64,000 bases of DNA from an uncultured Maribacter sp. (lineage in GTDB: Bacteria; Bacteroidota; Bacteroidia; Flavobacteriales; Flavobacteriaceae): contig CANNFY010000001.1 in the NCBI GenBank assembly GCA_947504045.1, positions 1,426,001 to 1,490,000 on the forward strand. Direction: 5' to 3'. The notes under the pieces were generated by a model that made no database searches, had not been told where the DNA came from, and saw only the letters and a program-made list of their open reading frames with translations. Of this stretch, positions 42,635 through 60,078 are shown piece by piece (position 1 is the first letter of the stretch; every line of letters begins with the position of its first letter). Both the position numbers and the translations under genes were made by a program.

Positions 42635-43639
42635 TTAATCGAGAACTTTTTTTGCTTGTGGTATTATTTTGAATTCTTTAAAGTTATTGAGTTTTTTATT
42701 TAAAAGTGTTAAATTAATAATTCTACTCAAATTGTTTCTAAGATTTTCGAGACCTTTTTTGTTTTTATGATGGAATAATTGAATTTTATTTAAATTGACA
42801 TGTTCAAATATTTCTTTAAGTAAAGTTTTGTCAGATAAGCCTAACGAATGTCCAATAGAAAATATCTCAAAATTTCCTTTATCTAGATATTCAAATATAT
42901 TGTCGTACGAATCCCAATTTTTATATTTGTGTTGTTTTAGATTTTCTAAGAAAGAATTGTTATTCTTTGAGAGTATTTCTAAATATTTTGAATCTGTACT
43001 ATCTCCATATCCAAATATTAATGGATTTTCTTCGGAATATAACTCTCCATTAATGTGAACTATACTTTTATCCTCAATTTCATTTAAAATATCTAAATAC
43101 ATCCTAGCAATAGGAGTATAGTTAAAATTGATTAAATATAATGACTCTGGATTTCCAGACTTTAATATTTCTTTTATTTCAGGAATAAGATTAATTTCTT
43201 TGTTTTCGAATCTAGAATTTAAATATTTTTCTAGAAATTTAGTAATAGTTGCAAAATCAGAATTTGTTTCTTCTAATAAATCTCCATTATATTTAGAACT
43301 ATTTAAGCATTGGCATAATTCTTCATAATATAGTGTTTCAATATCAAACCAGTTTGCTTCAAAAAACCTAAGCATAATTTTTAAAAGCAGTTTGTTCTTA
43401 AAAAAAATTTTATTAGATAAATTATACTCTTTTTCGGTAGCTATATCGCCAAAATTATTTTTTATGTACTCATAAGTTGAGTTTTCGCTATACAAATATC
43501 CAGCATCGAATAATTCTTTTCTAATACTTTTACTGCCATTAATTGATTCTAGAATTAGATATTGTATAAAATCATAATAGGAGGTTTTGATGCCATGCGC
43601 GATATCAAAACCATTCCCGATTATAACAACTCTTCTCAT
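42635..43639 (-). CDS. AbiH family abortive-infection-type protein
   Basis: 334 residues. The N-terminus VVIIGNGFDIAHGIKTSYYDF is the hallmark of AbiH proteins (phage abortive infection, first known from lactococcal plasmids). Further support comes from LYLINFNYTPIARMYLDIL, HINGELYSEENPLIFGYGDS and the late FSIGHSLGLSDKTLLKEIF motif. The mechanism is unknown; the N-terminus resembles a nucleotide-binding loop. No partner toxin or antitoxin is visible. It starts only 3 nt after the lysS stop and has more AT-rich codon use than lysS by eye, suggesting insertion behind lysS. Confidence 0.88.
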   Translation of the reverse strand: MRRVVIIGNGFDIAHGIKTSYYDFIQYLILESINGSKSIRKELFDAGYLYSENSTYEYIKNNFGDIATEKEYNLSNKIFFKNKLLLKIMLRFFEANWFDIETLYYEELCQCLNSSKYNGDLLEETNSDFATITKFLEKYLNSRFENKEINLIPEIKEILKSGNPESLYLINFNYTPIARMYLDILNEIEDKSIVHINGELYSEENPLIFGYGDSTDSKYLEILSKNNNSFLENLKQHKYKNWDSYDNIFEYLDKGNFEIFSIGHSLGLSDKTLLKEIFEHVNLNKIQLFHHKNKKGLENLRNNLSRIINLTLLNKKLNNFKEFKIIPQAKKVLD

Positions 43640-46463: not shown

Positions 46464-47054
46464 TTAATAAGCTAATCCTAAATAGTCCATTACGTCTTTG
46501 TAATTGCTAACTTTAATACCACTTTTTGTCATATTTTCTAAAGAACGTGCATCGCTTTTAGCAGATAAATTAGAAGAGGCAATTAGTACATACCTAACTT
46601 CATGATTTGTTGGTGGCGTAGGCTGTGCTCCTATATCATTTACTATGGCAAATGAAATATATTCTCCAATTGACATTGCATCATGAATTTCATATCTACT
46701 TGCTAAGCTTATATATGGTACTGATGATGCAGCTGTGTTTGAGCCTGTAAATTTTACATAGCTTAATAGCGCATAAGAATCTATTACCTCTTGTGTAATA
46801 CTAGAATCAGAGATTTCAAATCTAGCTTCATTTACAGCATCCCAACTATTAGGAAAGTTAAGTGCTGTCCATGAAGATGCAATTACATTGGCATTCCCAT
46901 CTTCCCCATTTTCACCGTCTTGGCCAGCAATTCCTTGTTCTCCTTGTGCACCTGTAGCGCCATCCTCCCCATCTTCACCATCTTTACCGCAGGAGGTAAG
47001 TGTTAGGCATAAAGTAATTAAAACTAATCCAAGAAATTTCATTGTTGTTTTCAT
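46464..47054 (-). CDS. Collagen-like lipoprotein A
   Basis: 196 residues: lipoprotein signal ending LTLTSC (Cys ~22), then ~10 Gly-x-y triplets ([19 protein letters not shown]...) forming a short collagen-like stalk. A C-terminal globular part of ~135 residues follows (EARFEISDSSITQEVIDSYA). It is a paralogue of the protein at 47120-47731: both begin MKTTMK and share the stalk, the ...[19 protein letters not shown] stretch and a C-terminal [20 protein letters not shown]. It is surface-exposed or periplasmic. The upstream sigma element is degenerate in this copy. Confidence 0.85.
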   Translation of the reverse strand: MKTTMKFLGLVLITLCLTLTSCGKDGEDGEDGATGAQGEQGIAGQDGENGEDGNANVIASSWTALNFPNSWDAVNEARFEISDSSITQEVIDSYALLSYVKFTGSNTAASSVPYISLASRYEIHDAMSIGEYISFAIVNDIGAQPTPPTNHEVRYVLIASSNLSAKSDARSLENMTKSGIKVSNYKDVMDYLGLAY

Positions 47055-47084
47055 AATTAAAGTATTTAAAATTGTTATTTATTG

Positions 47085-47114
47085 TGTAATTTATGTTGGT
47101 GTAAAAAGATTAAC
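47085..47114 (-). promoter_or_regulatory. Degenerate copy of the ECF sigma promoter element
   Basis: The minus strand carries GTTAATC (47108-47114), one base off GTTAACC, about 55 nt before the start of lipoprotein A. At the 15-nt spacing the second element is poor (AAATTACA); a better one, CATAAATT, is present at 12 nt. It may be weak or inactive. Confidence 0.35.
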
Positions 47115-47119
47115 ATTAT

Positions 47120-47731
47120 CTAGTTTTTCAAATTAAAATGTTCCATAACTTGGTTATAATCTGAAGGGTCTACTCCTTTTTCGTAAAGTGCATCAAGAAT
47201 ATTATGGTTAGAAGATTTTCCTGTATTAGATGATGACATTAAAACCAAACGAAGTTCATCTAAATCTCCAGCACCTATTATGATTGGGTCACCATCTCTT
47301 AAAAAGTTCAATTTGAAGAAATAAGCGTTATTACCGTTTGATACATATTCGGTACCAATATCAATAAGAGCAAAACCATTAGTAAAAATCCGTTGATTGG
47401 GTACTTGGTACCATGTGTCAGCTACTCTTACATAAGCTAGTACTGCTCCATCTTCGACATAAGTTGCTGCAGTAGTACCGCTTAATTGATGGTTTGTTCC
47501 ACTTGCAGCTGTAATATCAAATTTAAAAGTAACAACATTTGCATTTCCATCTGTTCCTTGCTCACCTTGTATTCCTTGTTCACCCTGTATTCCTTGTTCA
47601 CCTTGTATGCCTTGTTCTCCTTGAAGTCCCATAGCACCATCCTCACCATCCTCTCCATCTTTACCACAAGAGGTAAATGTTAAGCTTATAGTCATAAAAG
47701 CTATTCCTATTAATTTCATTGTTGTTTTCAT
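47120..47731 (-). CDS. Collagen-like lipoprotein B
   Basis: 203 residues: lipobox SLTFTSC (Cys ~22), then a longer Gly-x-y stalk (residues 23-64) built from [10 protein letters not shown] and repeats of GEQGIQ, and a C-terminal globular part of ~135 residues. The C-terminal domain ([30 protein letters not shown]) is shared with lipoprotein A and has no known family name. It is probably an outer-membrane anchored stalk protein. It is preceded by a perfect ECF-type element. Confidence 0.87.
47549..47620 (-). repeat. 18-bp tandem repeat encoding GEQGIQ
   Basis: Three near-identical 18-bp units, each encoding GEQGIQ, are followed by a degenerate fourth (GEQGTD), inside the collagen-like stalk of lipoprotein B. 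Being a multiple of 3, changes in copy number keep the frame and alter stalk length. Confidence 0.85.
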
Positions 47732-47763
47732 AATTAATTTTTTTAATAGTGATTATTATTTCT

Positions 47764-47793
47764 CTTTAATGTTTACAGTATAAAAAGGTTAAC
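47764..47793 (-). promoter_or_regulatory. ECF sigma promoter element of lipoprotein B
   Basis: GTTAACC (47787-47793), 15 nt, CATTAAAG (47764-47771) on the minus strand. The start codon follows 32 nt later. It is a perfect match to the element before the sigma gene. Confidence 0.7.
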
Positions 47794-47800
47794 ATTGTGG

Positions 47801-47829
47801 AAAAAAAACCGAGACTTAATCTCGGTTTT
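47801..47829 (-). terminator. Terminator of the propeller lipoprotein gene
   Basis: AAAACCGAGA with TCTCGGTTTT (47805-47814 with 47820-47829), 5-nt loop, followed by T residues on the minus strand. It separates the gene at 47873 from the promoter of lipoprotein B. Confidence 0.85.
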
Positions 47830-47872
47830 AGGTAATTAAAATAAAATTGAGGTTTATTTTTAACGCATTAGC

Positions 47873-49057
47873 TTATGGATAAACCTTAGATGAGGTAAGT
47901 AATAAATTAGGATAGTTTATAGGATTTAATTCTTTCTCCCATATTAATGTCTTATCTTCTATATTGATTAAGGAAACATGCGATTTGTTATCAAATGGCA
48001 ATAATTTAAAAAAGAGAACATATTCATTAATAAAATAGAATTCGGTATCCGAGCTGCTCAGTAATTCGGAATTTTCAAGAGTGTAAGAGTCCAATTCTTC
48101 ACCAGAAGAGAGGTCTAAAGTTTTAATTTCAATATTTTCTGCTTCTTTATAATGTCTTATATAAACGGCATCATTATAAACATTTATACCTAATGGGAAG
48201 TCTTCCAAATAATCCTTTTGCCAATTAAGGGAGCCATTATTTTTATTAAGATTATAAATGGTTTTATCTCTGGAGTAAAAAAGGAATTGATTATCTACTT
48301 CAATACCTCCTAATAAATTTGGACCATCTGTTTCAAAAGTCCAATTAAAGTTTAGCTCATTGTCCATTGAAATTACATTATTATTCCAAGTCATTACATA
48401 AATAGAGGATGTACCTTGTTTTAATCTTCCTATTCGTTCGGTAAAAGGTAATCTATGGTCTATGCTACCTGTGTTTGCATTTATACTTAAAAGCTCTACG
48501 GTACTTGATCCTACCGCCAATTCTAGTATTATTTGACCTTCAAAAGAGGTTGTTTTTTTAATATTGTCTGTTAATTCTAAACTCCATTTAATAGCACTGG
48601 TGTCTATATCTAAGGCTTCTAAATAATAAGTAGATTCATAAGTATTTCTATCAACTATAGTATATCCAATAAAAACAGTATTTAGGTATACCTCAATGGT
48701 GTCTAGTAAATAATAAAGTTCGGGAGTAGCTGCATATTCTTTAGTCCAAATGTTATCTCCATCAAAATTCTCTTTTCTTATTAAAGTTTTGGTTTCTGAG
48801 TGAGAACCTTGGTAACAAATAAAGTCGTCATCAAATTCTATACATTCAAAGGTACCTAAAGCGGTAAAAGAATTTGTTTGTAAACCATCTTGTATGTTTA
48901 GTTCTGTAAACTCAGTTTCGTTTTGGATCCAAACGCTACCCTCAATAGCATTGGTAGCGTTTTGCATGAAATTAGAAGTAGAATCATCGTCTTTTTTACA
49001 ACTGAATAAAGCTGTAAAAATTAATAGACCAGTAAGAGTTTTTTTATAAAATTTCAT
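47873..49057 (-). CDS. Beta-propeller (PQQ-like) lipoprotein
   Basis: 394 residues with lipoprotein signal (LIFTALFSC, Cys ~20). The body is a series of beta-propeller-like blades, seen from repeated tryptophan strands: SAIKWSLELTDN, NLNKNNGSLNWQKDY, NIEDKTLIWEKEL. This is the PQQ-repeat pattern without evidence for cofactor binding. It is likely a surface or periplasmic binding or scaffolding protein. It has its own ECF-type promoter and its own terminator. Confidence 0.82.
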   Translation of the reverse strand: MKFYKKTLTGLLIFTALFSCKKDDDSTSNFMQNATNAIEGSVWIQNETEFTELNIQDGLQTNSFTALGTFECIEFDDDFICYQGSHSETKTLIRKENFDGDNIWTKEYAATPELYYLLDTIEVYLNTVFIGYTIVDRNTYESTYYLEALDIDTSAIKWSLELTDNIKKTTSFEGQIILELAVGSSTVELLSINANTGSIDHRLPFTERIGRLKQGTSSIYVMTWNNNVISMDNELNFNWTFETDGPNLLGGIEVDNQFLFYSRDKTIYNLNKNNGSLNWQKDYLEDFPLGINVYNDAVYIRHYKEAENIEIKTLDLSSGEELDSYTLENSELLSSSDTEFYFINEYVLFFKLLPFDNKSHVSLINIEDKTLIWEKELNPINYPNLLLTSSKVYP

Positions 49058-49077
49058 AATTTTTTTTAAAGATTTAT

Positions 49078-49107
49078 TTTTAATGTTTATGACATTAAAA
49101 GGTTAAC
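49078..49107 (-). promoter_or_regulatory. ECF sigma promoter element of the propeller lipoprotein
   Basis: GTTAACC (49101-49107), 15 nt, CATTAAAA (49078-49085) on the minus strand; start codon 20 nt further. Confidence 0.65.
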
Positions 49108-49116
49108 AAGAGAGAA

Positions 49117-49148
49117 TAAAAAAGGCTGAGATTATTGTATCTCAGCCT
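49117..49148 (-). terminator. Terminator of the kelch lipoprotein operon
   Basis: A perfect 10-bp stem AGGCTGAGAT with ATCTCAGCCT (49123-49132 with 49139-49148) is followed on the minus strand by a T run. It lies 39 nt past the stop at 49187. Confidence 0.85.
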
Positions 49149-49186
49149 AAAAAACTAACCAATTAATTAAATGAAAGAATGATTTT

Positions 49187-49729
49187 TTAAAACGTAATTA
49201 TTTCTGTAGAATGGTCTCCACTATAAATATTTAAAGCACCATAGGTAGCATTAGAGTCACCAGACTCTCCTCCAAAATCAGTAATCATAAAGAAAAATTG
49301 ATGACTTATATTGTCCCCTTCTATTACTATTTTTCCATTTAAAACAGCACCAGAAAGTGGGTTTGTTGGGTCTCCATACCAATTAATAGAAGAGCTTAGG
49401 GCACTCGTTGTAGTTTGTGTCCATGGACTTACAATTGGGTTAACAAACTCTACGTAATCATGAGCATATTGCCAATGTATTTGTTTAACACCTCCTTGGT
49501 CACTGCCAGAAAAAATAAAGTCGTAAGTAGTGTCTTGTCTTAAGTTTAATTGAATGTTGCCAAAATCGGAGTCTTGATTAAAAGTATGAATAAAGCCATC
49601 TCCAGAAATTTGAAAAGAAAATTCTGGAGACGTAGTATCAGAATCAGGAACATCTACGGTGCAGCTCTGAATAGCAATTAATAAAAATAAAATTGGTAAT
49701 TGTAAGAAGATTTTTTTAAGTGTTTTCAT
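49187..49729 (-). CDS. Lipoprotein of unknown family
   Basis: 180 residues: lipobox IAIQSC (Cys ~23), then a beta-rich domain with many aromatic residues (FIFSGSDQGGVKQIHWQYAH, HQFFFMITDFGGESGDS). I do not recognise the family. It is the last gene of the kelch - 118-aa - barrel - lipoprotein operon, 20 nt behind the barrel gene. Probably extracytoplasmic. Confidence 0.75.
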   Translation of the reverse strand: MKTLKKIFLQLPILFLLIAIQSCTVDVPDSDTTSPEFSFQISGDGFIHTFNQDSDFGNIQLNLRQDTTYDFIFSGSDQGGVKQIHWQYAHDYVEFVNPIVSPWTQTTTSALSSSINWYGDPTNPLSGAVLNGKIVIEGDNISHQFFFMITDFGGESGDSNATYGALNIYSGDHSTEIITF

Positions 49730-49749
49730 AATAGTTTATTTTTAATTAT

Positions 49750-50380
49750 TTAATGTTTTGGCCCTGGGAGTTTAAAGGTTATAGCTAATCCAAAAGAAAA
49801 AGGACTTATTTTATCATAATTATCCCTTTCTCCCATATAAATTAATCTAGAATTGCGGATACTAATATGTGGTTCCAAGGCTAGAAAGTGCCATAAATGA
49901 AAACCATACCCAACACTAAAATTGTATTTAGTTATGTTTGGATAGTCTACGTTAGGAAAAAATCCACCATCAGGAAATACACCAATTAAGCCAACATATG
50001 CATCTACAAAAAATTCATCATATATTTTGTATCTAGAAAATAAGCCAAATTGCATTTCTATGGTAGATTTATAATAGTCTTCTTGGTCTTCATCAGCATT
50101 ATGACGAGTAGAATCAATATCATAATAATTTACAGTGCTAAAACCAATTGCTATACCAGTGGTGATTTTTTCTCTAAAGAAAATGTGGCCAATTTTAAAC
50201 TGTACATCGTAATTAATAGGTTTAGAATTATAAAAGGAGAGCTCACTTTCTACGTTATTTTCACTAATATTTTGTCCCATAACGGTTAACCCAATACTTA
50301 GTTTCTTTTTTCTAGCTGCGGATTGACTAAAACCATATAAAGAACTAAACAGAAATAATAATAGGACATTTTTTTTTCAT
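49750..50380 (-). CDS. Outer-membrane beta-barrel protein, frameshifted just after its start
   Basis: The intact frame from 50280 to 49750 encodes 176 residues with barrel-like strands and aromatic ends (NYDVQFKIGHIFFREKITTGI, YKIYDEFFVDAYVGLIG, FSVGYGFHLWHFLALEPHI). The frame continues upstream without a stop through a signal-peptide-like sequence (FLFSSLYGFSQS) back to a run of nine A. The ATG at 50380, 6 nt after the upstream stop, is out of frame with it by one base: with eight A the protein would start MKKNVLLLFLFSSLYGFSQS. So as read the gene is off or mis-sequenced. The internal ATG at 50280 would skip export. Confidence 0.75.
50369..50377 (-). repeat. A9 homopolymer right after the start codon of the barrel gene
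   Basis: Nine A residues on the minus strand follow ATG directly. Nine gives ATG-AAA-AAA-AAA-TGT and stops after 11 codons; eight opens the full reading frame. It is a classic slipped-strand site. Confidence 0.85.
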
Positions 50381-50385
50381 GAATA

Positions 50386-50742
50386 TTATTCTTCAGAGTT
50401 GCTTTTAGCCATAGCATTTTGTATCATTTTATTAGCCCTTATTTTTAATTCTTCTTTTTTCGTGGGGTCTAAACTGGTGTCGTACAAATGGTATATTTCT
50501 TCCACTTGTTTTTTTAGTTCTGGAGAAATATTTAGCTTATCTAATAAGTCTAAATAGTTTGTAGCACCTTTTGCTGGGTTTTCTTCTTCTGTTGCCCCAC
50601 CAAGACTAAAAACAGAACCATAAACTTTAACCTGCTCATCTAATAAGTTTGTTTGTTTTGTGGTGTCTTGTGTAGTGTTTTGTCCGTAACAAGTTGTACA
50701 AAAACCTAATAGTAGAATACTTAATGTAGTAATTGCTTTCAT
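50386..50742 (-). CDS. Small secreted helical protein
   Basis: 118 residues: signal peptide cleaved after CYGQ, then a polar Thr/Gln-rich linker and a predicted helical part (residues ~60-115, LDLLDKLNISPELKKQVEEI and following). No family is recognised. It lies 13 nt behind the kelch gene and 5 nt before the ATG of the barrel gene, so the products may work together at the cell envelope. Confidence 0.75.
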   Translation of the reverse strand: MKAITTLSILLLGFCTTCYGQNTTQDTTKQTNLLDEQVKVYGSVFSLGGATEEENPAKGATNYLDLLDKLNISPELKKQVEEIYHLYDTSLDPTKKEELKIRANKMIQNAMAKSNSEE

Positions 50743-50755
50743 AATTTTTTATGGA

Positions 50756-51766
50756 TTAATTTATTTCTATTGTGGTAATTTCTCCTCTTAGCTCGGCCGT
50801 GCCTGTACCATCATTTTGGTATCCACCAAAGAGCCATAGTTTATCTAGATAATTAAGTATGGTATGAGAGTTAATACCTTCGTCACTTGGTCTTGTACCA
50901 GTATAAATTGTCCAATCGCTCATATTTTCGGAATACCAAATTTCACTGTTGTAGTCTATAGAGGCATCTTTACCACCAATAACCCAAACTTTGTTGTCAT
51001 AAACATTTACAGTATGTGCATTTCTTCCTGGAAAATGAATAAAGTTTACTTGTGTCCAAGAAGAACCATTAGTACTGGTCCAAATTTCATTTAGTTTGCG
51101 ACCAGAAATATCTTCTCCGCCAACAATGTACATGGCATTATTAAAAACTATTCCTTTTTGGCCTGATCTTCCAGAAAATGCATCTGGTGTTTCTTGTACC
51201 CAATCTGTACCATTAATAGTAGACCATACTTCGGTATTATTAGTTGTTAAATTACCAGCTATTACAAACATTTTATTATTGAAAACCAATGTTTCATGTT
51301 CCGGAATTAAACCAAAAGGAGCAGAGGCATGTACATTTGTCCAATTAATACCATCGGCAGATTTCCAAATATCTCCGTAGGCATTATCGGAAGCGTCCTC
51401 TCCACCAATTAAATAAAGCTCGTTGTTAAAAAGAGTTACGGTATGGTTTTTTCTAAAAGAAGATAAAGAGATAGGATTAGTGCCCGTTGTAATCCAATTA
51501 ATGCCATTATCACTAGACCATGCAAAATGACTATCTATTCCGCCGTAATCATTTACACCTCCATAAGACCAAATTTTACCATTGAATTCAATCATTGCAT
51601 TTTCTGCAAAATCGCCCATTTGGTCTTGTTTTGTTTTTATTTCAAATTTTAGTTCTATAGAATCAATACCCTTTAGAAGGTCATCTTCCTCTATTTCTTT
51701 CTCTTTATCACAAGAAATAAATGCCAAGGTTAAAAAGGTTATATATAGCATTTTAAATAATTTCAT
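50756..51766 (-). CDS. Kelch-repeat lipoprotein
   Basis: 336 residues: lipobox ALAFISC (Cys ~19), then five to six kelch-like blades, each ~45 residues with the pattern LFNNELYLIGGEDASDNAYG, VFNNAMYIVGGEDISGRKLN, VYDNKVWVIGGKDASIDYNS and a tryptophan strand (DIWKSADGINW). It forms a beta-propeller at the cell surface or in the periplasm. It is the first gene of a four-gene operon with an ECF-type promoter. Confidence 0.87.
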   Translation of the reverse strand: MKLFKMLYITFLTLAFISCDKEKEIEEDDLLKGIDSIELKFEIKTKQDQMGDFAENAMIEFNGKIWSYGGVNDYGGIDSHFAWSSDNGINWITTGTNPISLSSFRKNHTVTLFNNELYLIGGEDASDNAYGDIWKSADGINWTNVHASAPFGLIPEHETLVFNNKMFVIAGNLTTNNTEVWSTINGTDWVQETPDAFSGRSGQKGIVFNNAMYIVGGEDISGRKLNEIWTSTNGSSWTQVNFIHFPGRNAHTVNVYDNKVWVIGGKDASIDYNSEIWYSENMSDWTIYTGTRPSDEGINSHTILNYLDKLWLFGGYQNDGTGTAELRGEITTIEIN

Positions 51767-51792
51767 AATTGTAGTTTTTAAATGTTATTTCT

Positions 51793-51822
51793 CTTTTATG
51801 TTTTACTTTTTAAAAGGTTAAC
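51793..51822 (-). promoter_or_regulatory. ECF sigma promoter element of the kelch operon
   Basis: GTTAACC (51816-51822), 15 nt, CATAAAAG (51793-51800) on the minus strand; start codon 26 nt further. Confidence 0.65.
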
Positions 51823-51844
51823 ATGCAGTAGAAGTTTTTTAAAT

Positions 51845-51879
51845 AAAAACTGCCCAACTATAAAAGAAGGGCAGGTTTT
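51845..51879 (-). terminator. Terminator of the collagen-like propeller lipoprotein gene
   Basis: ACTGCCC and GGGCAGGT arms (one bulge, 13-nt loop) with an A run on the left, a T run when read on the minus strand. It lies 22 nt past the stop at 51901. Confidence 0.7.
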
Positions 51880-51900
51880 AAAATTTGGGTATTATTACTT

Positions 51901-53031
51901 TTATAAGGCTAAGTCTACTTTTATAAGTTTTTGAGTATCATAATCATTCCAATTTGTTGCAGCTAGCCAAAAATTAGTGCCGTCATAGGTAATGCCAGAT
52001 ACATTGTGCCCCCTTAATTCATAAGTTTCAATTGCTCTAAACTCAGGAGAAGTTTGGCATTTATGTACCCTAGTTCCTTCAGTAACATATAAGAAGCCAT
52101 CTCTATAATCTAAACCACTTGGTGAAAAATCTAGAGGTACAGATCCAAGAATTTCTCCGGGTGAAGCAGGTTCATGAGAAAAATAATGGTATAATGTGTC
52201 TTCACTATTACTAGATAACCATAATTCTCCGGGTGATTTAGAAGCAATACCTTTTATCCAAGAGCCTAAATTCTGGGAAGTATAGTTAAAAGTATTTGTT
52301 GCATAAATAAAAGAATGATAATTACTAGATCCATTATTACTCTGAAATAGTTGCCTATCAGGAGCATCAGACTTTTCAATTTCAACGGCATAGGCATCTA
52401 GTGTAGTTGGTATAATGCCTTCTACGCTAAAATTACTTGGGTTAATTTGTTCAATGTTTCTGTTACTATAATTATAGCCTAATAAATAAGTGCCATCAAA
52501 AGCAATATCAACTTCTCTACTCCAAGCAGTACTGCCTTCAACTAAAGTAGTAAGCTCTTTAATCCAATTAGAAGAGTTTGGTGCAGTAGTGGATCGTTGC
52601 ATTAGTATTGGGTCACTGTCAAAAGATCTTGTTAAGGTTAAAATATATTCGTTTACTTCGTAATTATTTATCCCATATATACCAATGCTACCATATAAAT
52701 CATTTGTTATAATTTGATTTACGGAAACGGTAACATTTGTTCTTTCTGTTCTTTTAAACCCTAGTTGATCTTCTGATAAAATTTCTAAGGTGTTATCTTC
52801 ATTTATATAAACATATTTTGCTACATCAGAACCTATTTCACTAATAACTTCCCATGTACCATAGGCAGCAGGGGTAATTGTTGTAGCATCCGCACCTGCG
52901 GGTCCTGTTTCGCCTTGTATTCCATGTGCTCCCATAACTCCATCTTCCCCATCTTCAGGTTTGCAAGATGCAATAAGTAAAAAAAGTATAGATAGGATGA
53001 GCATTGGTTTGTAATATTTCTTTTTCTTCAT
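51901..53031 (-). CDS. Lipoprotein with short collagen-like stalk and propeller-like domain
   Basis: 376 residues: lipobox LLIASC (Cys ~23), a Gly-x-y stretch (EDGEDGVMGAHGIQGETGPA), then ~320 residues with YVTN/SMP-30-like blades (TYLLGYNYSNRNIEQINPSN, SGLDYRDGFLYVTEGTRVHK, ISGITYDGTNFWLAATN-like end). It combines the stalk of lipoproteins A/B with the propeller type of the other regulon members. It is divergent from the sigma factor gene across 232 nt and carries an ECF-type promoter. Confidence 0.83.
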   Translation of the reverse strand: MKKKKYYKPMLILSILFLLIASCKPEDGEDGVMGAHGIQGETGPAGADATTITPAAYGTWEVISEIGSDVAKYVYINEDNTLEILSEDQLGFKRTERTNVTVSVNQIITNDLYGSIGIYGINNYEVNEYILTLTRSFDSDPILMQRSTTAPNSSNWIKELTTLVEGSTAWSREVDIAFDGTYLLGYNYSNRNIEQINPSNFSVEGIIPTTLDAYAVEIEKSDAPDRQLFQSNNGSSNYHSFIYATNTFNYTSQNLGSWIKGIASKSPGELWLSSNSEDTLYHYFSHEPASPGEILGSVPLDFSPSGLDYRDGFLYVTEGTRVHKCQTSPEFRAIETYELRGHNVSGITYDGTNFWLAATNWNDYDTQKLIKVDLAL

Positions 53032-53059
53032 AATAAGAGATTTAATTGTTTTTATTACC

Positions 53060-53089
53060 CTTTAATGAGCAAAGAAGTTAAAGGTTAAC
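53060..53089 (-). promoter_or_regulatory. ECF sigma promoter element of the stalk/propeller lipoprotein
   Basis: GTTAACC (53083-53089), 15 nt, CATTAAAG (53060-53067) on the minus strand; start codon 28 nt further. Nothing else is recognisable between it and the sigma promoter at 53235. Confidence 0.7.
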
Positions 53090-53234
53090 ATTCGCAATTT
53101 TTTTTAAGAAATAAAGCCATAAAATGGAAAAAATAAATAGGTAAGCTAAATCTTACAATCCTTGTATTTAGGCTAGTTTTCTTAAATTTAGCGTATTAAA
53201 AAAATGAAAAAGAGTAAATTTAGCACTAATGACT

Positions 53235-53264
53235 GTTAACCTAATGTTCCCCAATACATTAAAG
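53235..53264 (+). promoter_or_regulatory. ECF sigma promoter element before the sigma factor's own gene
   Basis: GTTAACC (53235-53241), 15 nt, CATTAAAG (53257-53264) on the plus strand, identical in both boxes to the elements at 47764 and 53060. It implies autoregulation. The second box overlaps the annotated GTG start. Confidence 0.7.
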
Positions 53265-53830
53265 TGAAAAATACAGCGGCAAATATTACATTAGAAGACT
53301 TAAGAAATGGCTCCGATGCTGTACTTAAAAAAGTATACGAGGAGAACAGAGAAAAGTTTTTAAATTATGCTAAACGCTATAACTTGTCTGAGGAGGAGAA
53401 TATAGATGTTTACCAAGATGCCTATGTGATTTTTTATAATAATGTAATGAGCGGAAAGATAGACAGTTTTACTAGTAGTATATCTACTTATCTGTTCAGT
53501 ATCGGAAAATATTTAATTTTTGATATTATGAGAAAGAACAAGAAAAAGGTTAGTGGCAATTTTGATTTATCTAGAGTAGGTGATGAAGATGAGCTAGTAA
53601 GCACTATGGAAATAGAACCTTCAGGTTTAACAGCCGAACAAGAATTATTACAAAAGCATTTTGCAACCTTAGGAGAAAAGTGTCAAAAACTTTTAAAGTT
53701 ATTTTATTATAGAGGATATACTATACAAGAGATTGTAATAGAAGGCGAATATAATAGTGAGAATGTGGTAAAGGCAGCAAAATCTCGATGTATGAAAACT
53801 TTAAAAGAACGTATAAAAGATAATATATAG
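53264..53830 (+). CDS. ECF-type RNA polymerase sigma factor
   Basis: 188 residues from a GTG start. Region 2 is visible at ~25-90 (NIDVYQDAYVIFYNNVMSGK; YLFSIGKYLIFDIMRKNKKK) and region 4 at ~130-185 (LGEKCQKLLKLFYYRGYTIQ, then ENVVKAAKSRCMKTLKERI), with no region 3. This is the extracytoplasmic-function layout. The next gene, 4 nt away, encodes a membrane protein likely to be its anti-sigma factor. The start is uncertain: GTG lies within the promoter's second box, so translation may be leaderless or begin further in, for example at ATT 53285. Confidence 0.9.
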   Translation: MKNTAANITLEDLRNGSDAVLKKVYEENREKFLNYAKRYNLSEEENIDVYQDAYVIFYNNVMSGKIDSFTSSISTYLFSIGKYLIFDIMRKNKKKVSGNFDLSRVGDEDELVSTMEIEPSGLTAEQELLQKHFATLGEKCQKLLKLFYYRGYTIQEIVIEGEYNSENVVKAAKSRCMKTLKERIKDNI

Positions 53831-53834
53831 TATC

Positions 53835-54563
53835 ATGGATAAAGAACAGTTACTATACCAGTATTTTTCAAATTCTTTAACTCCAGAGCAAGAGGTAGAG
53901 TTTAGTGCTTTATTATCTTCAGATACGGAATTTAAGGAACAATTTGATTTTGAGCAAAGTCTGCAAAAAGCTATTAAAGACAAGGAAGGCAAAGATTTAA
54001 AAGATAAACTACAAGGTTTTGAAGCTACTATTAAAAAAGATACGACCCCAGTTATTAAATTAAACTTTAGAAAATGGGCCATGGCAGCTTCCATAGCTTT
54101 AGTAATTGGAATTGGCTGGTTAACGTATACTAATATGGGTACAGATTATGAAACTTTGTACAATTCTAATTATGAACAATACCCTAATACAGTTTTTACA
54201 ATAACAAGAGGGGATACGACGGAATCTTTGGAACGGGAGGCTTTTACGGCATATGAGTTAGGAGATTTTGAAAAGGCAATTATGGAGTTTGATAAAATTC
54301 CTGTTTCTGATAGAAAAGATTTTGTGTCTTTTTATAAAGCGCAATCTTATTTAGGTTTAGGAAATAATAAAGAGGCAAAAAAACTTTTTATAAATATTAT
54401 TACTAATAACAAGCTTTTTGTTGCTGAGTCTCATTGGTATTTGGCTTTAACATACTTAAAATCTAACGAAATGCCATTAGCAAAAAAAGAGTTACAGCTT
54501 TTAGTAAAAAACTATGCTTATAAAAAGGATGCTGCAGAAGCTCTTCTTAAGGAATTAGATTAG
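53835..54563 (+). CDS. Putative anti-sigma factor: single-pass membrane protein with TPR-like repeats
   Basis: 242 residues: a cytoplasmic part (~1-80) with a helical start YQYFSNSLTPEQEVEFSALL that resembles anti-sigma N-terminal segments, one membrane helix at 81-99 (basic residues before it, so N-in/C-out), and a periplasmic part with TPR-like helices (~130-240: AYELGDFEKAIMEFDKI, ESHWYLALTYLKSNEMPLAK). The anti-sigma role is inferred from position and topology; no zinc-binding ZAS motif is present. The end overlaps the convergent CHAT gene by 17 nt. Confidence 0.72.
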   Translation: MDKEQLLYQYFSNSLTPEQEVEFSALLSSDTEFKEQFDFEQSLQKAIKDKEGKDLKDKLQGFEATIKKDTTPVIKLNFRKWAMAASIALVIGIGWLTYTNMGTDYETLYNSNYEQYPNTVFTITRGDTTESLEREAFTAYELGDFEKAIMEFDKIPVSDRKDFVSFYKAQSYLGLGNNKEAKKLFINIITNNKLFVAESHWYLALTYLKSNEMPLAKKELQLLVKNYAYKKDAAEALLKELD

Positions 54564-57309
54564 CTTTTTTAGTTCTATGTTTATATAAGAATACAAGAAT
54601 AATTAGAAACACTAAAGCAGGAGCTAAAACCCAAATCCAATTTATACCTGTGTCTAAAGGTTCGTAATTTCCAGATAATATAAATCCAGACCAATAATAA
54701 GGATGACTTAATGCATTGTCTTTATTTACCTTTAAGAAATTTACTTTTGCGGTTTGTAACGCAATATCTTTAGGGGTATTCTTAGCAAGAATGGTATAAT
54801 AATCTGCCATTAATTTAGCGGTAGAAGCATCGTTAACTTTCCATAATGTACTTGTTAAGCTTTTTGCTCCTGCATAGAAAAAGCCATGCGCTAAACCAAT
54901 AAAACCTTCCCCTCTTTTTAAATCTCCGATGGTAGTTTCACAAGCACTTAGCGTTACTAAATTAGCTTGTAATTTAAGGTTGTAAAGGTCTTTTATATAT
55001 AATAGATTTTCTTCTTTTTCTTTTGGAGAGAATGCTAAATACGAATATTCAGGAAGTTCATTATTAAAAGTGGCATGTGTTGCAAAATGTAAAATACCAA
55101 ATTCACCAACATTTTTATTGAAATTGGATAATGTAGCTTTCGGTCCAATCAGAGATTTTCCATCAAATAAAGTAGTTATGTTATTTACCTCTGTAGTGTT
55201 ATGCGGTAATGTGGTTAGTTTGTCTCTTGTTGTTGTTGGGTCTACAAATTCGCCATTAAAACTAGGAGCAAAGGCAAGAATTCTTTTTTTGCTAGTTTTG
55301 TTTTTCCATAATTTGGAAAGTAATGTAGCAGAATTTGAGTAACTAATAGAATATTTATGAATAAGAAATTTTTGCTCTTTTTTAGAATCTATTAATGTGC
55401 CAAAGGGGAGAAAATTTATTGGACCATCTGGAATAATTACAATTCTTTTTGTTTTAGAAATAATGGAAGAGGACACTATTTTTTGATAAAGAATATTAGA
55501 TAAATTATCTAAATCAGGACGATTAGAATTTGGGTCAGCTATTAAAGCATAATACTGTTTAAGTTGCTGTTCAATTTTCTTAGCATTATCAATTTTAATA
55601 AAACGTTGTTCATCTTGTCCAATAGAAATTACGTAAATAGCTTTATCTCCATAAAAATAACTAATTAGAGTTTGGTCTTTTGTTATCTCATTTGTTACAG
55701 ATGCTATATCAATAACATTACTTTTATAACGCAATTCATGATAATCTGGATAATTTTTAGATAAATAGTCTATTGTATTAGATTGCTCCTGTTTTAATTT
55801 AAATATTTTGTTATTTAGTTTTTCATCAGTGCTTTTGGCTACTTTTAACTCCTTTTCAATAGAAGTGATTTCTATACGTAACCTTCGTTCTTTTTCTAAA
55901 AGGGAATCTGGAACTGTAGAAAATTTATTAGCTTTAGATGCTTGTAAAGCATCTATAAGTAAAACCGATTTACTTTTTTCCATTAAAAAAAAGCTGCGTT
56001 CTATATATTTTTTATCCCCTGTTTTTTTATATAAATTATAATTAGCATTTAATGCATATTCAAATAAAGGGAAAGTATTTTCTACTAAATTTATTTTGTC
56101 AGTACTATACTGGTAGTCTGATTTAAAATTATCTAATGATTTAATGGCAGAATATGCTATAGTATTTGCATCTTCATATTTTTTAAGCTTATATAAAGAT
56201 TTAGTTTTTAGTGTAATTAACTCCAAATACATGGAGCCAAACTCCGTATTTATAGTTTCTAAGGCTATATTAATTAAATTAAGAGCGTCTTTGTGATTAT
56301 TATTTTCTGAATATAGCGCCTTTTCTTTATAGATATACGAGAGTGTATTTTTGTCGTATTTTTTTCTTGTTTTTTTATAAGAATTTAAGGCTTCATTTAT
56401 TTTAGAAATGGCAGTTAATGTGTTACCATTAGTTTGTTCTAGTTTACCCTGAGTAAGGTGCAATAAATATTCGAAATGTGGGCTTCTATAAATGTTTTTT
56501 TGCATTAAAGAAAGGTAGTGCAAAGAGCTATCTTGTTGTTCTAATAATAAATGATTTTTTGCTAGATTATTGGCTACTGTAATAATTCTATTGGGATTAT
56601 CATTTTTAATTAACGCATATTTTAATGTCTGTTTTAAATATAAATTTGCTTTTTTAATTTCGCCTTGTTTTTTTAATACATCTGCTAGTAAAGCATAATT
56701 TATATAAAGGTTACTTAAATCATCAGGAGTTATAATTTTAATTAAATGTATATTCTCTAAATAATAATCCTTAGATAGGTTGAGTTTTCCTTCTAAATCA
56801 TAGATTTTAGCTAAAAAACTAATAGAAACAGAAAATAAATAAAAATGGTCTTTTGTAAGATTCTCATAGGTAGAATTTTCATAAGAGTTGTAGATTGTTT
56901 TAAAAAAGGTTTTAGCTTTTTCAAAATCTCCTATTTTGAAATAATAATTTCCTTTATCATAATTTATAGAGTTTTGGTATAATAGGGGGTCTTCAATGGT
57001 ATCCCATATATTTGGTTCATTAGCGATTAAGGAATCTAATGTTTTGAGGTTAGAAGATGTTGTTTGTAAATCGTAAAAAGAACTTGCATTATGACTGGAA
57101 CTAATCAATGCTTCAAAAACAGTATTCCAATCTTGTTTTTTTAACGCAATATTTTCTATTTTTTTTAAATAGAAGTTTGCAGAATCGTTATTTACATAGA
57201 TATGCTTATAGGCTTCAGTATACAATTTTTCAACTTCCTCTTTATAAGTAGTTGATTGTTGTGCATGAACCAAAAAAGTAAAGGTTAATAAGAAAAAAAG
57301 AAGTTTCAT
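54547..57309 (-). CDS. TPR-CHAT caspase-like protease, periplasmic and membrane-tethered
   Basis: 920 residues: signal peptide (cleaved near VHAQ), many TPR-like helical repeats (~20-440), a coiled-coil region (~450-520), then a CHAT domain (~590-880). The peptidase pair is conserved: His ~745 in LHFATHAT and Cys ~790 in VTLSACETT, followed by GEGFIGLAHGFFYAGAKSL and STLWKV. A membrane helix (~891-909) and basic tail end the protein, so the protease should face the periplasm. It is the last gene of the OmpA operon and is convergent, with overlap, to the putative anti-sigma gene. The substrate is unknown. Confidence 0.9.
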   Translation of the reverse strand: MKLLFFLLTFTFLVHAQQSTTYKEEVEKLYTEAYKHIYVNNDSANFYLKKIENIALKKQDWNTVFEALISSSHNASSFYDLQTTSSNLKTLDSLIANEPNIWDTIEDPLLYQNSINYDKGNYYFKIGDFEKAKTFFKTIYNSYENSTYENLTKDHFYLFSVSISFLAKIYDLEGKLNLSKDYYLENIHLIKIITPDDLSNLYINYALLADVLKKQGEIKKANLYLKQTLKYALIKNDNPNRIITVANNLAKNHLLLEQQDSSLHYLSLMQKNIYRSPHFEYLLHLTQGKLEQTNGNTLTAISKINEALNSYKKTRKKYDKNTLSYIYKEKALYSENNNHKDALNLINIALETINTEFGSMYLELITLKTKSLYKLKKYEDANTIAYSAIKSLDNFKSDYQYSTDKINLVENTFPLFEYALNANYNLYKKTGDKKYIERSFFLMEKSKSVLLIDALQASKANKFSTVPDSLLEKERRLRIEITSIEKELKVAKSTDEKLNNKIFKLKQEQSNTIDYLSKNYPDYHELRYKSNVIDIASVTNEITKDQTLISYFYGDKAIYVISIGQDEQRFIKIDNAKKIEQQLKQYYALIADPNSNRPDLDNLSNILYQKIVSSSIISKTKRIVIIPDGPINFLPFGTLIDSKKEQKFLIHKYSISYSNSATLLSKLWKNKTSKKRILAFAPSFNGEFVDPTTTRDKLTTLPHNTTEVNNITTLFDGKSLIGPKATLSNFNKNVGEFGILHFATHATFNNELPEYSYLAFSPKEKEENLLYIKDLYNLKLQANLVTLSACETTIGDLKRGEGFIGLAHGFFYAGAKSLTSTLWKVNDASTAKLMADYYTILAKNTPKDIALQTAKVNFLKVNKDNALSHPYYWSGFILSGNYEPLDTGINWIWVLAPALVFLIILVFLYKHRTKKANLIP

Positions 57310-57315
57310 ATTAAA

Positions 57316-57338
57316 AGCCCTAAGGTATACTTAGGGCT
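57316..57338 (-). terminator. Hairpin between lipoprotein and CHAT gene (attenuator or processing site)
   Basis: A perfect 9-bp stem AGCCCTAAG with CTTAGGGCT, 5-nt loop, followed on the minus strand by TTTT, only 7 nt before the CHAT start codon. The T-tract is short, so it may be a partial terminator that lowers CHAT expression, or an mRNA stabiliser. Confidence 0.5.
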
Positions 57339-57365
57339 AATAAAGATATTGATTTTTAATGAATT

Positions 57366-57977
57366 TTATTTACCATAAACTATATAGCTTCTTTTATTCA
57401 ATCCGTCTTTTTCAATTACTTCTACAGCAATACTATATAGACCATCAAAAGAACTTATGTTTATTTTGCTAAATAATATTTCACCTCCAGTTTCTGGTAG
57501 TGGGCTAAGCTCATCAATAGTTCCACCACCTATTACTTTACCATTTTTATCTTGGAACTCAAGCGTTATTTTCTCTGCAAAATTATTTGTTAGAATATTT
57601 TCTAACAATGTAAAATCACAATTTAAAGGGGTAGGGCATGGTGGTTTTGGTCGCGGAATTCTAATTGCTAACTCATCAAAAGAAAAAATGTTTTCAATTT
57701 CTGAACTTAATTCATAACTTTCTTTTTTAGCAGCTGCTAATTGATCTAAGGTAGTTTGATCAGCTTGGTTATTAGCAACAATATCTTCTAATAATTGTAT
57801 TTCTACATCTAGTTTTTCAATTTCTTGCTCCAAATAAATTTCATATAAATGACCTTCATAAATGTAATTAGAATCGGTAAGTTCAACTTCTTCTATCCCT
57901 CCTCCAGAATATTCTTTTAAGCAAGACATCATTAGCAGTCCTGTAATACTTAATAGTAATAATACTTTTGTTTTCAT
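57366..57977 (-). CDS. Lipoprotein with coiled coil
   Basis: 203 residues: lipobox LLMMSC (Cys ~19), a Glu-rich coiled coil (~45-95, EIEKLDVEIQLLEDIVANNQ), a Pro-rich linker (IPRPKPPCPTP) and a beta-rich C-terminal domain. I do not recognise the family. It lies 25 nt after the TapB-like gene and 56 nt before the CHAT gene, all in the OmpA operon. Confidence 0.75.
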   Translation of the reverse strand: MKTKVLLLLSITGLLMMSCLKEYSGGGIEEVELTDSNYIYEGHLYEIYLEQEIEKLDVEIQLLEDIVANNQADQTTLDQLAAAKKESYELSSEIENIFSFDELAIRIPRPKPPCPTPLNCDFTLLENILTNNFAEKITLEFQDKNGKVIGGGTIDELSPLPETGGEILFSKINISSFDGLYSIAVEVIEKDGLNKRSYIVYGK

Positions 57978-58002
57978 TTTTAGTAGTTTTGGTTAATAAT
58001 TT

Positions 58003-58698
58003 TTATTTTAAAAACTTAGTAAGTTCAGTTCTACTTACTAAATCGCCATTCTTTTTATAAGTCTCATGTTTTACCATGCCAAGGCCTTCTGATAACCATA
58101 ATTTAGAGGACATTTCTAAAGTAGCTCCCATGGTTTTAGAAGTAGTATTCTCAGATATTACATAACAGGTAAATGTGCCAGCAACTGTAGTTACATTTTC
58201 TTTGTTTAGTACTTTACGATTAGTCATGTCTACAGCTATAGACATATCCATACCAGTCATATTCATATTTATCGTAACATTAGCGTCTTTAAGTTCTTTA
58301 CCAACTTGTAGGTTATTGGGTACTTCTATATCATTTCCTGAAATTTGCATTTTCATTCCCATACTTTCATATTGTTTCATCATAGCAGCTGGGAATAAAG
58401 ACTTATAGTCAATGCTTACCATATTATTTTCACAGGTATACGTATAACTAGTATTATAATTTTCTTTTCCTTTTTTATCGCTTAAAACTAAATTTAAAGT
58501 TGCTTTTGTAGCAGCACCTTCAGAGGAAACTGAAGAGATGTTGTAAGAGGTAATACCTTCTACTTTTCCTTTTTTATTGTAATTAGTATACTCAAAAGAT
58601 GAACCTTCTTTCATTGGGTAGTATTTACTACAACCATCTTGAGCAGTTATTCCTAAACTAAATAGGAAATAAAGTAAAAGGATTATTATATTTTTCAT
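58003..58698 (-). CDS. Secreted TapB/DUF3108-like protein
   Basis: 231 residues: signal peptide cleaved after GITAQ, then a beta-rich domain with YYPMKEGSSFEYTNYNKKGK at the start and KLWLSEGLGMVKHETYKKNG near the end. This 'string of beta strands reporting on a fixed compound' layout resembles TapB-like proteins in Bacteroidota. The function is unknown. It lies 21 nt behind the OmpA-like gene and 25 nt before the lipoprotein gene. Confidence 0.72.
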   Translation of the reverse strand: MKNIIILLLYFLFSLGITAQDGCSKYYPMKEGSSFEYTNYNKKGKVEGITSYNISSVSSEGAATKATLNLVLSDKKGKENYNTSYTYTCENNMVSIDYKSLFPAAMMKQYESMGMKMQISGNDIEVPNNLQVGKELKDANVTINMNMTGMDMSIAVDMTNRKVLNKENVTTVAGTFTCYVISENTTSKTMGATLEMSSKLWLSEGLGMVKHETYKKNGDLVSRTELTKFLK

Positions 58699-58719
58699 TT
58701 TGGTATGTTTAGTTGTTTA

Positions 58720-60033
58720 TTATTGTTTTATAAATTCAACTCTTCTGTTTTGAGCTTTGCCGCTTATAGTTTTATTATCCCCAACTGGTTCGGATGCTCC
58801 TTTTCCTTCTGTTGTTAATCTATTAGACGGTATGTTATAGATAGTAATAAGTGTGTTTTTTATAGCCTCTGCACGTTTTTTAGATAGTTTTAAGTTACCT
58901 TCTGCAATTCCATCAGAATCGGTATGGCCAACAATTTTTAGATTTAGGTTATTTTCTTGTGCCATTACCTGATATATTTGACGAATAATACCCATAGATT
59001 GAGGTTGTATAGTTGCAGAGCCACTATTAAATAAAATGCCATTGGTAGAAATTTTGCCATCTGCAATTAGTTTTCTTCTTAAATCTATACCGCCTTCAGA
59101 TATTTTTAAGTTTCTAATAAAAACCTTGTCTATCCCATCTCTTAAATTAAAAGGTGCAATTTTCATTGCCTTAATATCTGTGTTTGGAAGTAGTCTTGGA
59201 ATATCAACATATTTGGTTTCATTAATCCATAGGCGTACACGTTGTTTATTTATTGCCATAGAAATATGAGATTCTTTCTGTATGGTTTTACGAATATCTA
59301 CATCTAAAGAATTTCGCATGGTTCTTTTTCCATTGCTCCAAGATTCTATAATCATTCCTATGTCTATATATTGACACATAGGAATTTCAATAATTGCCGT
59401 ATTTTTTTTGGTGGTAAAACTATTATTGTCATCTAAATAAATACCAACGGTGGTGGAAGATGAGGTTTTCTTGTCTAATCCTGTAGTTAAAAAATCGAAC
59501 TCAATTGTAAATTCTTCTGGTAAGTCTGATGTGTCCGGAATATAGTAAGTGTCTCTGCCAGATTTTAATTCCATCCATTTTTCACGATTTTCTCCCATAG
59601 TAACTACTTCTCCACTACCATTGCTATTCCACTTTGATGGAAAATCGCCAGGAAAATCGTTAGACAGGTCATCAAATAATAAGATTTTGTCTCCAGGTAC
59701 AAAATCAAATTTTCTGTATACTTCTATAGAGGTATCAGCAGAAGGAGTTTGAGTACTAATTTCAGAAGAACCCTTAGAAGAAGTCGTTTTTTTGTTTGTT
59801 TTAGGTTGCTTTGGAGCTTTCTTTTTTTTTGTTCCAGGCTCAAAAATGCTATCTAATGCTTGGTCTGTTTTTTGTTCAGTTTCTTTCTCTATTCTTTTTT
59901 CTACAGCTCTTTCAGCTGCCTTCTCTGCTTTTTTACCTAGAGTTTTTAAAAATTGGCCATTAGCATTTAAAGAAAATAGACTAATACCCAAAAATGTAAA
60001 AATGAATTTTATTTTTTTTGATGATATTTTCAT
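58720..60033 (-). CDS. OmpA-family protein with N-terminal coiled coil
   Basis: 437 residues: signal peptide (cleaved after SLNANG), a Lys/Glu-rich helical segment (~28-65), a basic linker, a central beta-sandwich-like domain (~110-310), and a C-terminal OmpA peptidoglycan-binding domain (~330-437). The OmpA core is LKIVGHTDSDGIAEGNLKLS with RAEAIKNTLI and GKGASEPVGDN following. It should tie the envelope to peptidoglycan. First gene of the operon that ends with the CHAT protease, under an ECF-type promoter. Confidence 0.9.
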   Translation of the reverse strand: MKISSKKIKFIFTFLGISLFSLNANGQFLKTLGKKAEKAAERAVEKRIEKETEQKTDQALDSIFEPGTKKKKAPKQPKTNKKTTSSKGSSEISTQTPSADTSIEVYRKFDFVPGDKILLFDDLSNDFPGDFPSKWNSNGSGEVVTMGENREKWMELKSGRDTYYIPDTSDLPEEFTIEFDFLTTGLDKKTSSSTTVGIYLDDNNSFTTKKNTAIIEIPMCQYIDIGMIIESWSNGKRTMRNSLDVDIRKTIQKESHISMAINKQRVRLWINETKYVDIPRLLPNTDIKAMKIAPFNLRDGIDKVFIRNLKISEGGIDLRRKLIADGKISTNGILFNSGSATIQPQSMGIIRQIYQVMAQENNLNLKIVGHTDSDGIAEGNLKLSKKRAEAIKNTLITIYNIPSNRLTTEGKGASEPVGDNKTISGKAQNRRVEFIKQ

Positions 60034-60048
60034 TATAGTTGTTTGCCT

Positions 60049-60078
60049 ATTTTATGTAAGCAAATTACTAAGGTTAAC
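60049..60078 (-). promoter_or_regulatory. ECF sigma promoter element of the OmpA-CHAT operon
   Basis: GTTAACC (60072-60078), 15 nt, CATAAAAT (60049-60056) on the minus strand; start codon 15 nt further. It places the CHAT protease under the same control as the sigma factor. Confidence 0.65.

Follow-up and report, generated by a model that had tools for sequence, protein, structure and literature searches.

The DNA studied here is a stretch of 64,000 nucleotides (nt), called the window below, from an uncultured Maribacter sp. of the Flavobacteriaceae (assembly GCA_947504045.1, contig CANNFY010000001.1, positions 1,426,001 to 1,490,000 of the forward strand); coordinates are positions within the window. 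It encodes an extracytoplasmic function (ECF) sigma factor, and near the sigma gene stand six exact copies of a two-box promoter motif, GTTAACC-N15-CATWAAA. Five lie a short distance upstream of genes on the minus strand. The sixth, designated P2, lies directly against the start codon of the sigma gene itself, behind a sequence block that resembles a housekeeping promoter, designated P1. Own site and start codon are joined in this way in nearly all orthologous loci. On balance, we favor the view that one clade of flavobacterial ECF sigma factors has kept an autogenous promoter that is joined to the start codon of the sigma gene and stands behind a housekeeping promoter, over dozens of genera and through changes in promoter sequence, such that active sigma would switch the operon to a sigma-free transcript, a negative feedback built on one site.

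A promoter motif that travels with its sigma factor

The sigma factor combines the sigma2 and sigma4 regions characteristic of ECF members in a protein of about 190 amino acids (aa). Its match to TIGR02937 spans residues 21-183 and scores above cut-off (E 2e-14); from Pfam, region 2 alone matched, right at its cut-off.

Exact GTTAACC-N15-CATWAAA occurs seven times in the whole genome (3,455,399 bases in 42 contigs), compared to once for a backwards control. Six of the seven copies fall inside one 12.3-kb stretch, the locus described here; the seventh (L007) is antisense, within an open frame of 769 aa. The form GTTAACCT-N14-YATWAAA, with T at position 8 and Y as first letter of the -10 box, has six exact copies genome-wide, all in the locus. 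Up to two mismatches bring this to 125, against 145 for the backwards control, which is background. Within the window, matches with up to three mismatches number 35 where 37.75 are expected, a chance level, so the signal is carried by the exact copies only. Mismatched copies were rejected as further targets because their counts are at background in window and genome alike.

A preliminary description of this DNA had listed the same six copies with their 15-nt spacer, and a degenerate seventh at 47085-47114. The latter was discarded: the minus strand reads GTTAATCTTTTTACACCAACATAAATTACA there, a 15-nt spacer from GTTAATC leads to AAATTACA, and CATAAA sits at 12 nt instead of 15. The gap to the start codon is 16 to 33 nt at the five minus-strand copies (Table 1) and zero at the sigma gene.

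The distribution of the motif follows that of the sigma factor. In a set of 149 genomes, including the one that holds the window, 32 have a sigma match at E<=1e-10, and in 11 of those the match reaches at least 49% identity. These 11 genomes, taken to carry an orthologue, contain 57 exact copies of GTTAACCT-N14-YATWAAA (4 to 8 each; backwards control 3), 53 of them within 25 kb of the sigma gene. The other 138 genomes contain six in total (backwards control 34), and G006, the sole genome of the same genus without the sigma gene, contains none. The four distant copies in sigma-positive genomes (L230, L231, L232 and L233) lie 22, 26, 32 and 54 nt before ORFs (open reading frames), three of which look like lipoproteins, one of these collagen-like. 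A similar lipoprotein target is common to G004 and G008, and the collagen-like lipoprotein is in G045.

A second comparison used 79 orthologous loci, collected in one scan that used eight orthologues as queries besides the window sigma, and by their titles nearly all from Flavobacteriaceae. Six of them (L061-L066) coincide with same-genus members of the 149-genome set, so the two counts overlap; in L130 a contig end cuts sigma to 110 aa. Over 1.53 Mb of these loci, the spacer between GTTAACC and YATWAAA is 15 nt in 200 cases and 16 nt in 38, with 0 to 4 cases at each other spacing from 8 to 23. With the window added, strict sites number 57 at the sigma start, abutting it, and 203 in other places, the latter including two palindrome overlaps upstream of sigma (L115 and L121, plus strand) and one site within an open frame of 908 aa (L062, plus strand). 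An ORF starting with ATG follows within 150 nt at 187 of the 203, leaving 16 without one, and at 157 the distance is 14-36 nt. Features of the encoded proteins were counted by crude rules for the 171 of these 187 ORFs with a gap of 5-60 nt: the N-terminus is hydrophobic in 166, a lipobox-like motif occurs in 113 and a collagen-like stretch in 46, compared to 675, 242 and 48 among 1079 other ORFs of the loci. Collagen-like (GXY) lipoproteins are frequent in the loci (in the window, 46464-47731), with the promoter directly upstream in 46 of 94 such ORFs.

An AAC-type -35 element and a short -10 element at fixed spacing are typical of dedicated ECF promoters, and GTTAACC-N15/16-CATWAAA has this form. 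Because exact copies are restricted to the locus, travel with the sigma orthologue, keep a spacer of 15 or 16 nt and mostly precede hydrophobic N-termini, we regard the two boxes as the -35/-10 pair of a local ECF regulon. By this comparison the sigma factor of the window very probably serves the TGTTAACCTTT-N15/16-CATWAAA promoters of the neighboring lipoprotein, collagen-like, beta-propeller and OmpA...CHAT genes. The preliminary description had read the motif as the promoter of a local regulon of the encoded sigma factor and suggested a genome-wide search and a comparison with orthologous loci; both now speak for its reading.

The sigma gene's own site abuts the start codon

For the sigma gene itself, loci were chosen by sigma homology, not by motif, and up to two mismatches were allowed in the site. 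Among the 80 loci (the window and 79 others), 78 have a start codon in the sigma frame at -1 to +2 relative to where the best YATWAA box ends: ATG at 0 in 37, GTG at +1 in 24, ATG at -1 in 12, and other arrangements in 5. Over all 80 loci the site has no mismatch in 64, one in 10 and two in 6. In the two missing loci, L112 and L115, an abutting site with one or two altered letters is visible by eye. The own spacer is 15 nt in 66 of the 78 loci and 16 nt in 12, and in those 12 the start codon moves with the -10 box, not with the -35 box. Only one of the 187 target ORFs has its ATG within 2 nt of the box (Fisher 4e-64 against the 78 of 80 sigma loci, which is not a true probability, the loci being related).

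The sigma start codon looks real, since orthologues align from it and codons 2-13 evolve as coding sequence. Changes per codon position in codons 2-13 are 0.183, 0.099 and 0.255 (98 overlapping pairs), fewest at the second position, and 169 synonymous codon changes stand against 291 non-synonymous ones, where the possible changes divide 23 to 85. No ATG or GTG occurs at a conserved place early in the ORF; the next in-frame one has a median near codon 60 and varies in position.

Transcripts from ECF promoters start about 6 nt past the -10 box. At that distance, a gap of zero would place the start of P2 RNA in codon 2 or 3, giving a transcript without the sigma start codon. In sequence logos built from 35 of the 57 sigma sites (6 with 16-nt spacers and 16 near-copies omitted) and 155 of the 203 other sites, the bases around the expected start point keep the pattern of the targets although they lie inside the sigma ORF: A stands at position 34, the expected start point, in 34 of 35 sigma sites and 114 of the 155 others, and G at position 31 in 25 and 82, respectively. 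The plus-strand copy that had been reported before the sigma gene thus exists in exact form, but abuts the start codon and is no ordinary autoregulatory promoter.

The logo of the sigma sites extends upstream of the motif, with an A-tract from -28 to -23 and TTAAATTAGC from -20 to -11. The primary -7 box of flavobacteria, TAnnTTTG, is placed at -12 to -5 (PMC9723704). A match of at least 5/6 to it, ending 8-16 nt before the -35 box, is found at 72 of 78 sigma sites (L112 and L115 omitted from these counts) and at 34 of the 201 others; shuffling leaves a mean of 10 of 78. AAAA at -33 to -20 is found at 67 of 78 sigma sites and 44 of 201 others. In the window the corresponding -7 box is TAAATTTA. 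P1 would start RNA some 7-8 nt ahead of the P2 -35 box, and the two promoters could therefore hardly be occupied together.

The junction in the wider clade and in control families

A wider search with the diverged sigma L021 found matches in 93 of 299 genomes of the family, from which a selection was fetched. Sixty-one loci scoring at least 83 bits, 15 of them the window's own group, make up the wider clade, and 29 lower-scoring loci serve as controls; a start could not be set by rule in 1 of the 61 and 5 of the 29. Of the 60 wider-clade genes with a start, 39 have a GTTWAC beginning 27-29 nt ahead of it; the 24 controls with a start have none within 80 nt. Under a strict pattern, written after the wider-clade own sites had been viewed, the 46 genes outside the window's own group divide into 20 with a -10-like box touching the start codon, 10 with the hexamer only and 16 with neither, compared to 0 of 29 controls.

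Twelve of these loci, from three sub-clades, were followed over 15 kb. Ten have an own site of the form GTTTAC-N16-YAYHA with ATG immediately after it; L235 and L238 (the same loci as L140 and L143) fall outside the pattern used, yet an abutting site was seen there. In sub-clades B and D all but one of the listed target sites are GTTTAC, 19-44 nt before ORFs. In two diverged sub-clades own and target -35 boxes have changed together, mainly to GTTTAC and with exceptions, which adds to the case for a sigma -35/-10 pair. Sub-clade C has GTTGACC, GTTAACC or GTTTAC at its targets and GTTTAC at its own sites. Several targets in L240-L244 are GTTGACC or GTTAACC next to an own site of GTTTAC, which might mean that the own site is maintained as a distinct, perhaps weaker, one.

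In a phylogenetic tree (midpoint root, with a long-branch warning), 65 clade members form one group (support 99/96) that holds all 49 rows labeled as having an embedded site, and the 30 other rows hold none. The label is partly hexamer-only and overcounts, because the hexamers of L186, L194, L197 and L199 look by eye like the -35 box of a divergent gene; the strict recount is the 20 of 46 given above. Thirteen of the 29 controls (within L205-L228) belong to a paralogous ECF family whose genes carry GGAGACC-N15-CATWAA, with the same spacer and -10 box, and there ATG follows 15-17 nt downstream in 12 and 7 nt downstream in the other, likely an autoregulatory promoter of ordinary layout. With no case among the controls and this gap in the paralogous family, the zero gap is a trait of the window sigma's clade rather than of flavobacterial ECF genes at large.

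A model of negative feedback and its alternatives

The whole is, in our estimate, best explained by negative autoregulation through a P2 set between P1 and the sigma start codon, which the sequence comparisons make likely though far from certain. P1 would make the mRNA for sigma and for the product of the next gene, probably the cognate membrane anti-sigma, whose TPR domain would be part of the protein that holds sigma. When free sigma is plentiful, its holoenzyme would bind P2, physically exclude polymerase from P1, and start RNA inside codons 2-3. Any mRNA made in this way would begin past the sigma start codon and could still include the anti-sigma. As a net effect, sigma would limit its own synthesis.

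Several observations weigh against this model. The window P1 box matches just 5/6 positions, with no convincing TTG box at -33 by eye, and at 6 of 78 sigma sites no P1 box stands at the position examined. Sigma stop codon and anti-sigma start are -11 to +10 nt apart by a crude ORF rule, a closeness that raises the possibility of translational coupling and a poor yield of anti-sigma from an mRNA without sigma; occlusion is placed first in the mechanism for this reason. The next in-frame ATG or GTG of sigma varies widely in place, can come as early as the second codon and clusters in part near codons 20-24, TTG is often found at codons 13-24, and ATT at codon 8, present in seven of seven genomes of the genus, could in principle start a shorter sigma. 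In the wider clade the 16 genes without a site and the 10 with a hexamer only must be set beside a pattern defined post hoc, and in sub-clade C the own -35 box differs from most target boxes. The orthologues are related, and their counts are not independent events.

The closest alternative keeps the sign of the feedback and changes its route: P2 would mainly make anti-sigma mRNA, with little occlusion of P1, as the PrshA promoter inside sigH does in Corynebacterium glutamicum (PMC3489674). An anti-sigma homologue stands on the sigma strand in 78 of 79 loci, at the short distance just given, which suits this route; the same overlapping or closely spaced genes suggest coupling, and the closeness of P1 and P2 makes exclusion seem unavoidable. 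We hold this version as possible, with clearly less confidence than negative autoregulation through occlusion.

Positive autoregulation is common for ECF sigma factors. An ordinary regulon of that kind, in which P2 drives sigma through a very close start, a leaderless mRNA, or an internal TTG or ATT start, would draw on the codons named above and on the leaderless mRNAs of flavobacteria, put at 5.5% in F. psychrophilum (PMC9723704). A start codon at -1, 0, +1 or +2 of the YATWAA end would however require transcription to begin within or at the -10 box, no place common to all loci has an internal start, ATT at codon 8 is not kept in L016 and L017, and the paralogous family with the same -10 box keeps its gap of 15-17 nt. 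We consider this explanation unlikely.

Flavobacterial start codons are preceded by an A-rich context. The abutting start codon might on this basis reflect shared ancestry among related loci together with such a context, with no regulatory meaning, and translation initiation in this group does use signals other than Shine-Dalgarno (PMC9723704). This is improbable to us, because both boxes and the junction are preserved, through shifts of 1 nt, in spite of diverged spacers and flanks, and because sub-clades B, C and D show the junction again with different -35 and -10 letters. That the motif is instead an operator for another DNA-binding regulator, as the palindrome GTTAAC might suggest, is very hard to reconcile with two unlike boxes at 15/16-nt spacing in a single orientation at a narrow distance to genes, with the tie between motif and sigma gene, and with the same geometry under a different -35 in the paralogous ECF family.

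Other genes of the locus

Features of the locus are collected in Table 1. In the putative anti-sigma protein, the membrane segment has low confidence in the structure model. Its best Protein Data Bank (PDB) match is the YbgF TPR domain (E 1.3e-3); the TPR part alone matched known structures, and the N-terminus had no match among the best matches listed. At their 3' ends the anti-sigma and CHAT genes share 17 bases (54547-54563).

Table 1. Genes and promoters of the sigma locus, in window coordinates; gap is the distance from the end of CATWAAA to the start codon.
Feature	Position	Strand	Remarks
Second collagen-like lipoprotein	46464..47054	-	PF01391 E 1e-5, slightly below cut-off; starts 65 nt past the first, without its own promoter copy; may be cotranscribed
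Collagen-like lipoprotein	47120..47731	-	collagen-like adhesin model matches, below cut-off
ECF promoter	47765-47793	-	exact copy; gap 33 nt, before ATG of 47731
Possible beta-propeller (PQQ-like) lipoprotein	47873..49057	-	PF13360 E 5e-6, slightly below cut-off
ECF promoter	49079-49107	-	exact copy; gap 21 nt, before ATG of 49057
Three ORFs	49187-49729, 49750-50280, 50386-50742	-	downstream of kelch gene on its strand; may be cotranscribed
Kelch-repeat lipoprotein-like gene	50756..51766	-	PF24681 E 8e-18
ECF promoter	51794-51822	-	exact copy; gap 27 nt, before ATG of 51766
Lipoprotein-like gene with short collagen-like stretch	51901..53031	-	divergent from sigma; no Pfam match
ECF promoter	53061-53089	-	exact copy; gap 29 nt, before ATG of 53031
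Putative housekeeping promoter P1	53215..53222	+	-7 box, 5/6 of TAnnTTTG
Own ECF promoter P2 of sigma gene	53235-53263	+	exact copy; -10 box directly against GTG, gap 0 nt
ECF sigma factor	53264..53830	+	188 aa, GTG start; TIGR02937 E 2e-14, Sigma70_r2 E 3.4e-5
Putative anti-sigma	53835..54563	+	242 aa; N-terminal helices, probable membrane segment, C-terminal TPR
TPR-CHAT putative protease	54547..57309	-	920 aa; CHAT E 1.5e-61; signal-peptide-like N-terminus, C-terminal hydrophobic stretch; convergent with anti-sigma
Lipoprotein-like gene upstream of CHAT	57366..57977	-	likely same operon as CHAT; homologues in 33/79 loci
DUF3108-like protein	58003..58698	-	PF21347 E 9e-59; likely same operon
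OmpA-family protein	58720..60033	-	PF00691 E 3e-21; leads OmpA-DUF3108-lipoprotein-CHAT run
ECF promoter of OmpA...CHAT run	60050-60078	-	exact copy; gap 16 nt, before ATG

CHAT is encoded in 77 of 79 loci, convergent in 70, and anti-sigma and CHAT are both present in all 69 loci longer than 18 kb. The His-Cys dyad (H745 and C790) occurs in 76 of 77 aligned CHAT proteins, including that of the window, the remaining one being gapped; 68 of the 77 homologues have a hydrophobic N-terminus and 72 a C-terminal hydrophobic stretch. From its sequence the window protein, for which no PDB sequence match was found at E<=0.1, looks exported and membrane-anchored, and beside the anti-sigma it could act as a putative site-1 protease. 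CHAT as a universal member of the regulon was rejected: of 70 convergent loci, only 30 have a promoter copy on the CHAT strand no more than 9 kb upstream, and in the other 40 the available flank was 0.7 to 7.1 kb. Farther out, the ORF at 42635-43639 begins MRRVVIIGNGFDIAHG; its product may resemble AbiH-type abortive infection proteins.

Comparison with known systems

A survey of titles and abstract openings in the open-licence literature, with closed journals outside its scope, turned up no report of the GTTAACC-N15-CATWAAA motif and none of a sigma gene whose own promoter is joined to its start codon. In Streptomyces, sigR is said to have an autoregulated isoform, sigR', that amplifies the response; the likeness is an autoregulated second product of a sigma gene, and the difference is that the window product would be without the sigma start.

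In Pseudomonas syringae, HrpL holoenzyme at a target promoter adjoining its own gene is described as repressing the promoter that makes sigma (PMC5376354). The window architecture, with a site for the own holoenzyme beside the sigma-making promoter, would fit such negative autogenous control. HrpL acts at the hrpJ promoter, within a bidirectional region, to repress a promoter that depends on sigma-54 (PMC5376354), whereas P2 points the same way as the sigma gene and touches the start codon or includes part of it. In the SigH-RshA system of Corynebacterium glutamicum, housekeeping promoters make sigma and anti-sigma, and a sigma-dependent promoter within the sigH coding region drives anti-sigma only (PMC3489674). 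The position of P2, at the sigma start codon and next to P1, would fit an anti-sigma-only transcript, and close gene spacing argues for coupling. The SM6 motif of Flavobacterium psychrophilum is another ECF-type promoter in the same family; it differs in having CGT in its -10 region and in serving several type IX secretion system genes (PMC9723704).

In the CASP (Craspase) system, the TPR-CHAT protease Csx29 cleaves Csx30, an inhibitor of the ECF-like CASP-sigma (PMC10028731). The locus likewise brings together a TPR-CHAT protein with a His-Cys dyad, a putative inhibitor and an ECF sigma, and an exported-looking TPR-CHAT protein beside a putative membrane TPR anti-sigma recalls the cleavage of the CASP inhibitor; the exported and membrane-anchored appearance of the window protein is a difference. 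General profile scans named none of the scanned window proteins Cas7-11 or Csx30, no search being aimed at either or at CRISPR parts.

Implications

What is new here is an ECF sigma factor's own promoter that abuts or overlaps the sigma start codon and is conserved in this state across related loci. ECF sigma factors are mostly described as positive autoregulators, and a conserved promoter unable to make its own sigma would, if the model is right, be a compact design for negative feedback. The locus gives a ready promoter-sigma pair, including sub-clades with a changed -35 box. In Bacteroidota, it may also connect an envelope-type sigma circuit with TPR-CHAT proteins and with collagen-like lipoproteins of the cell surface.

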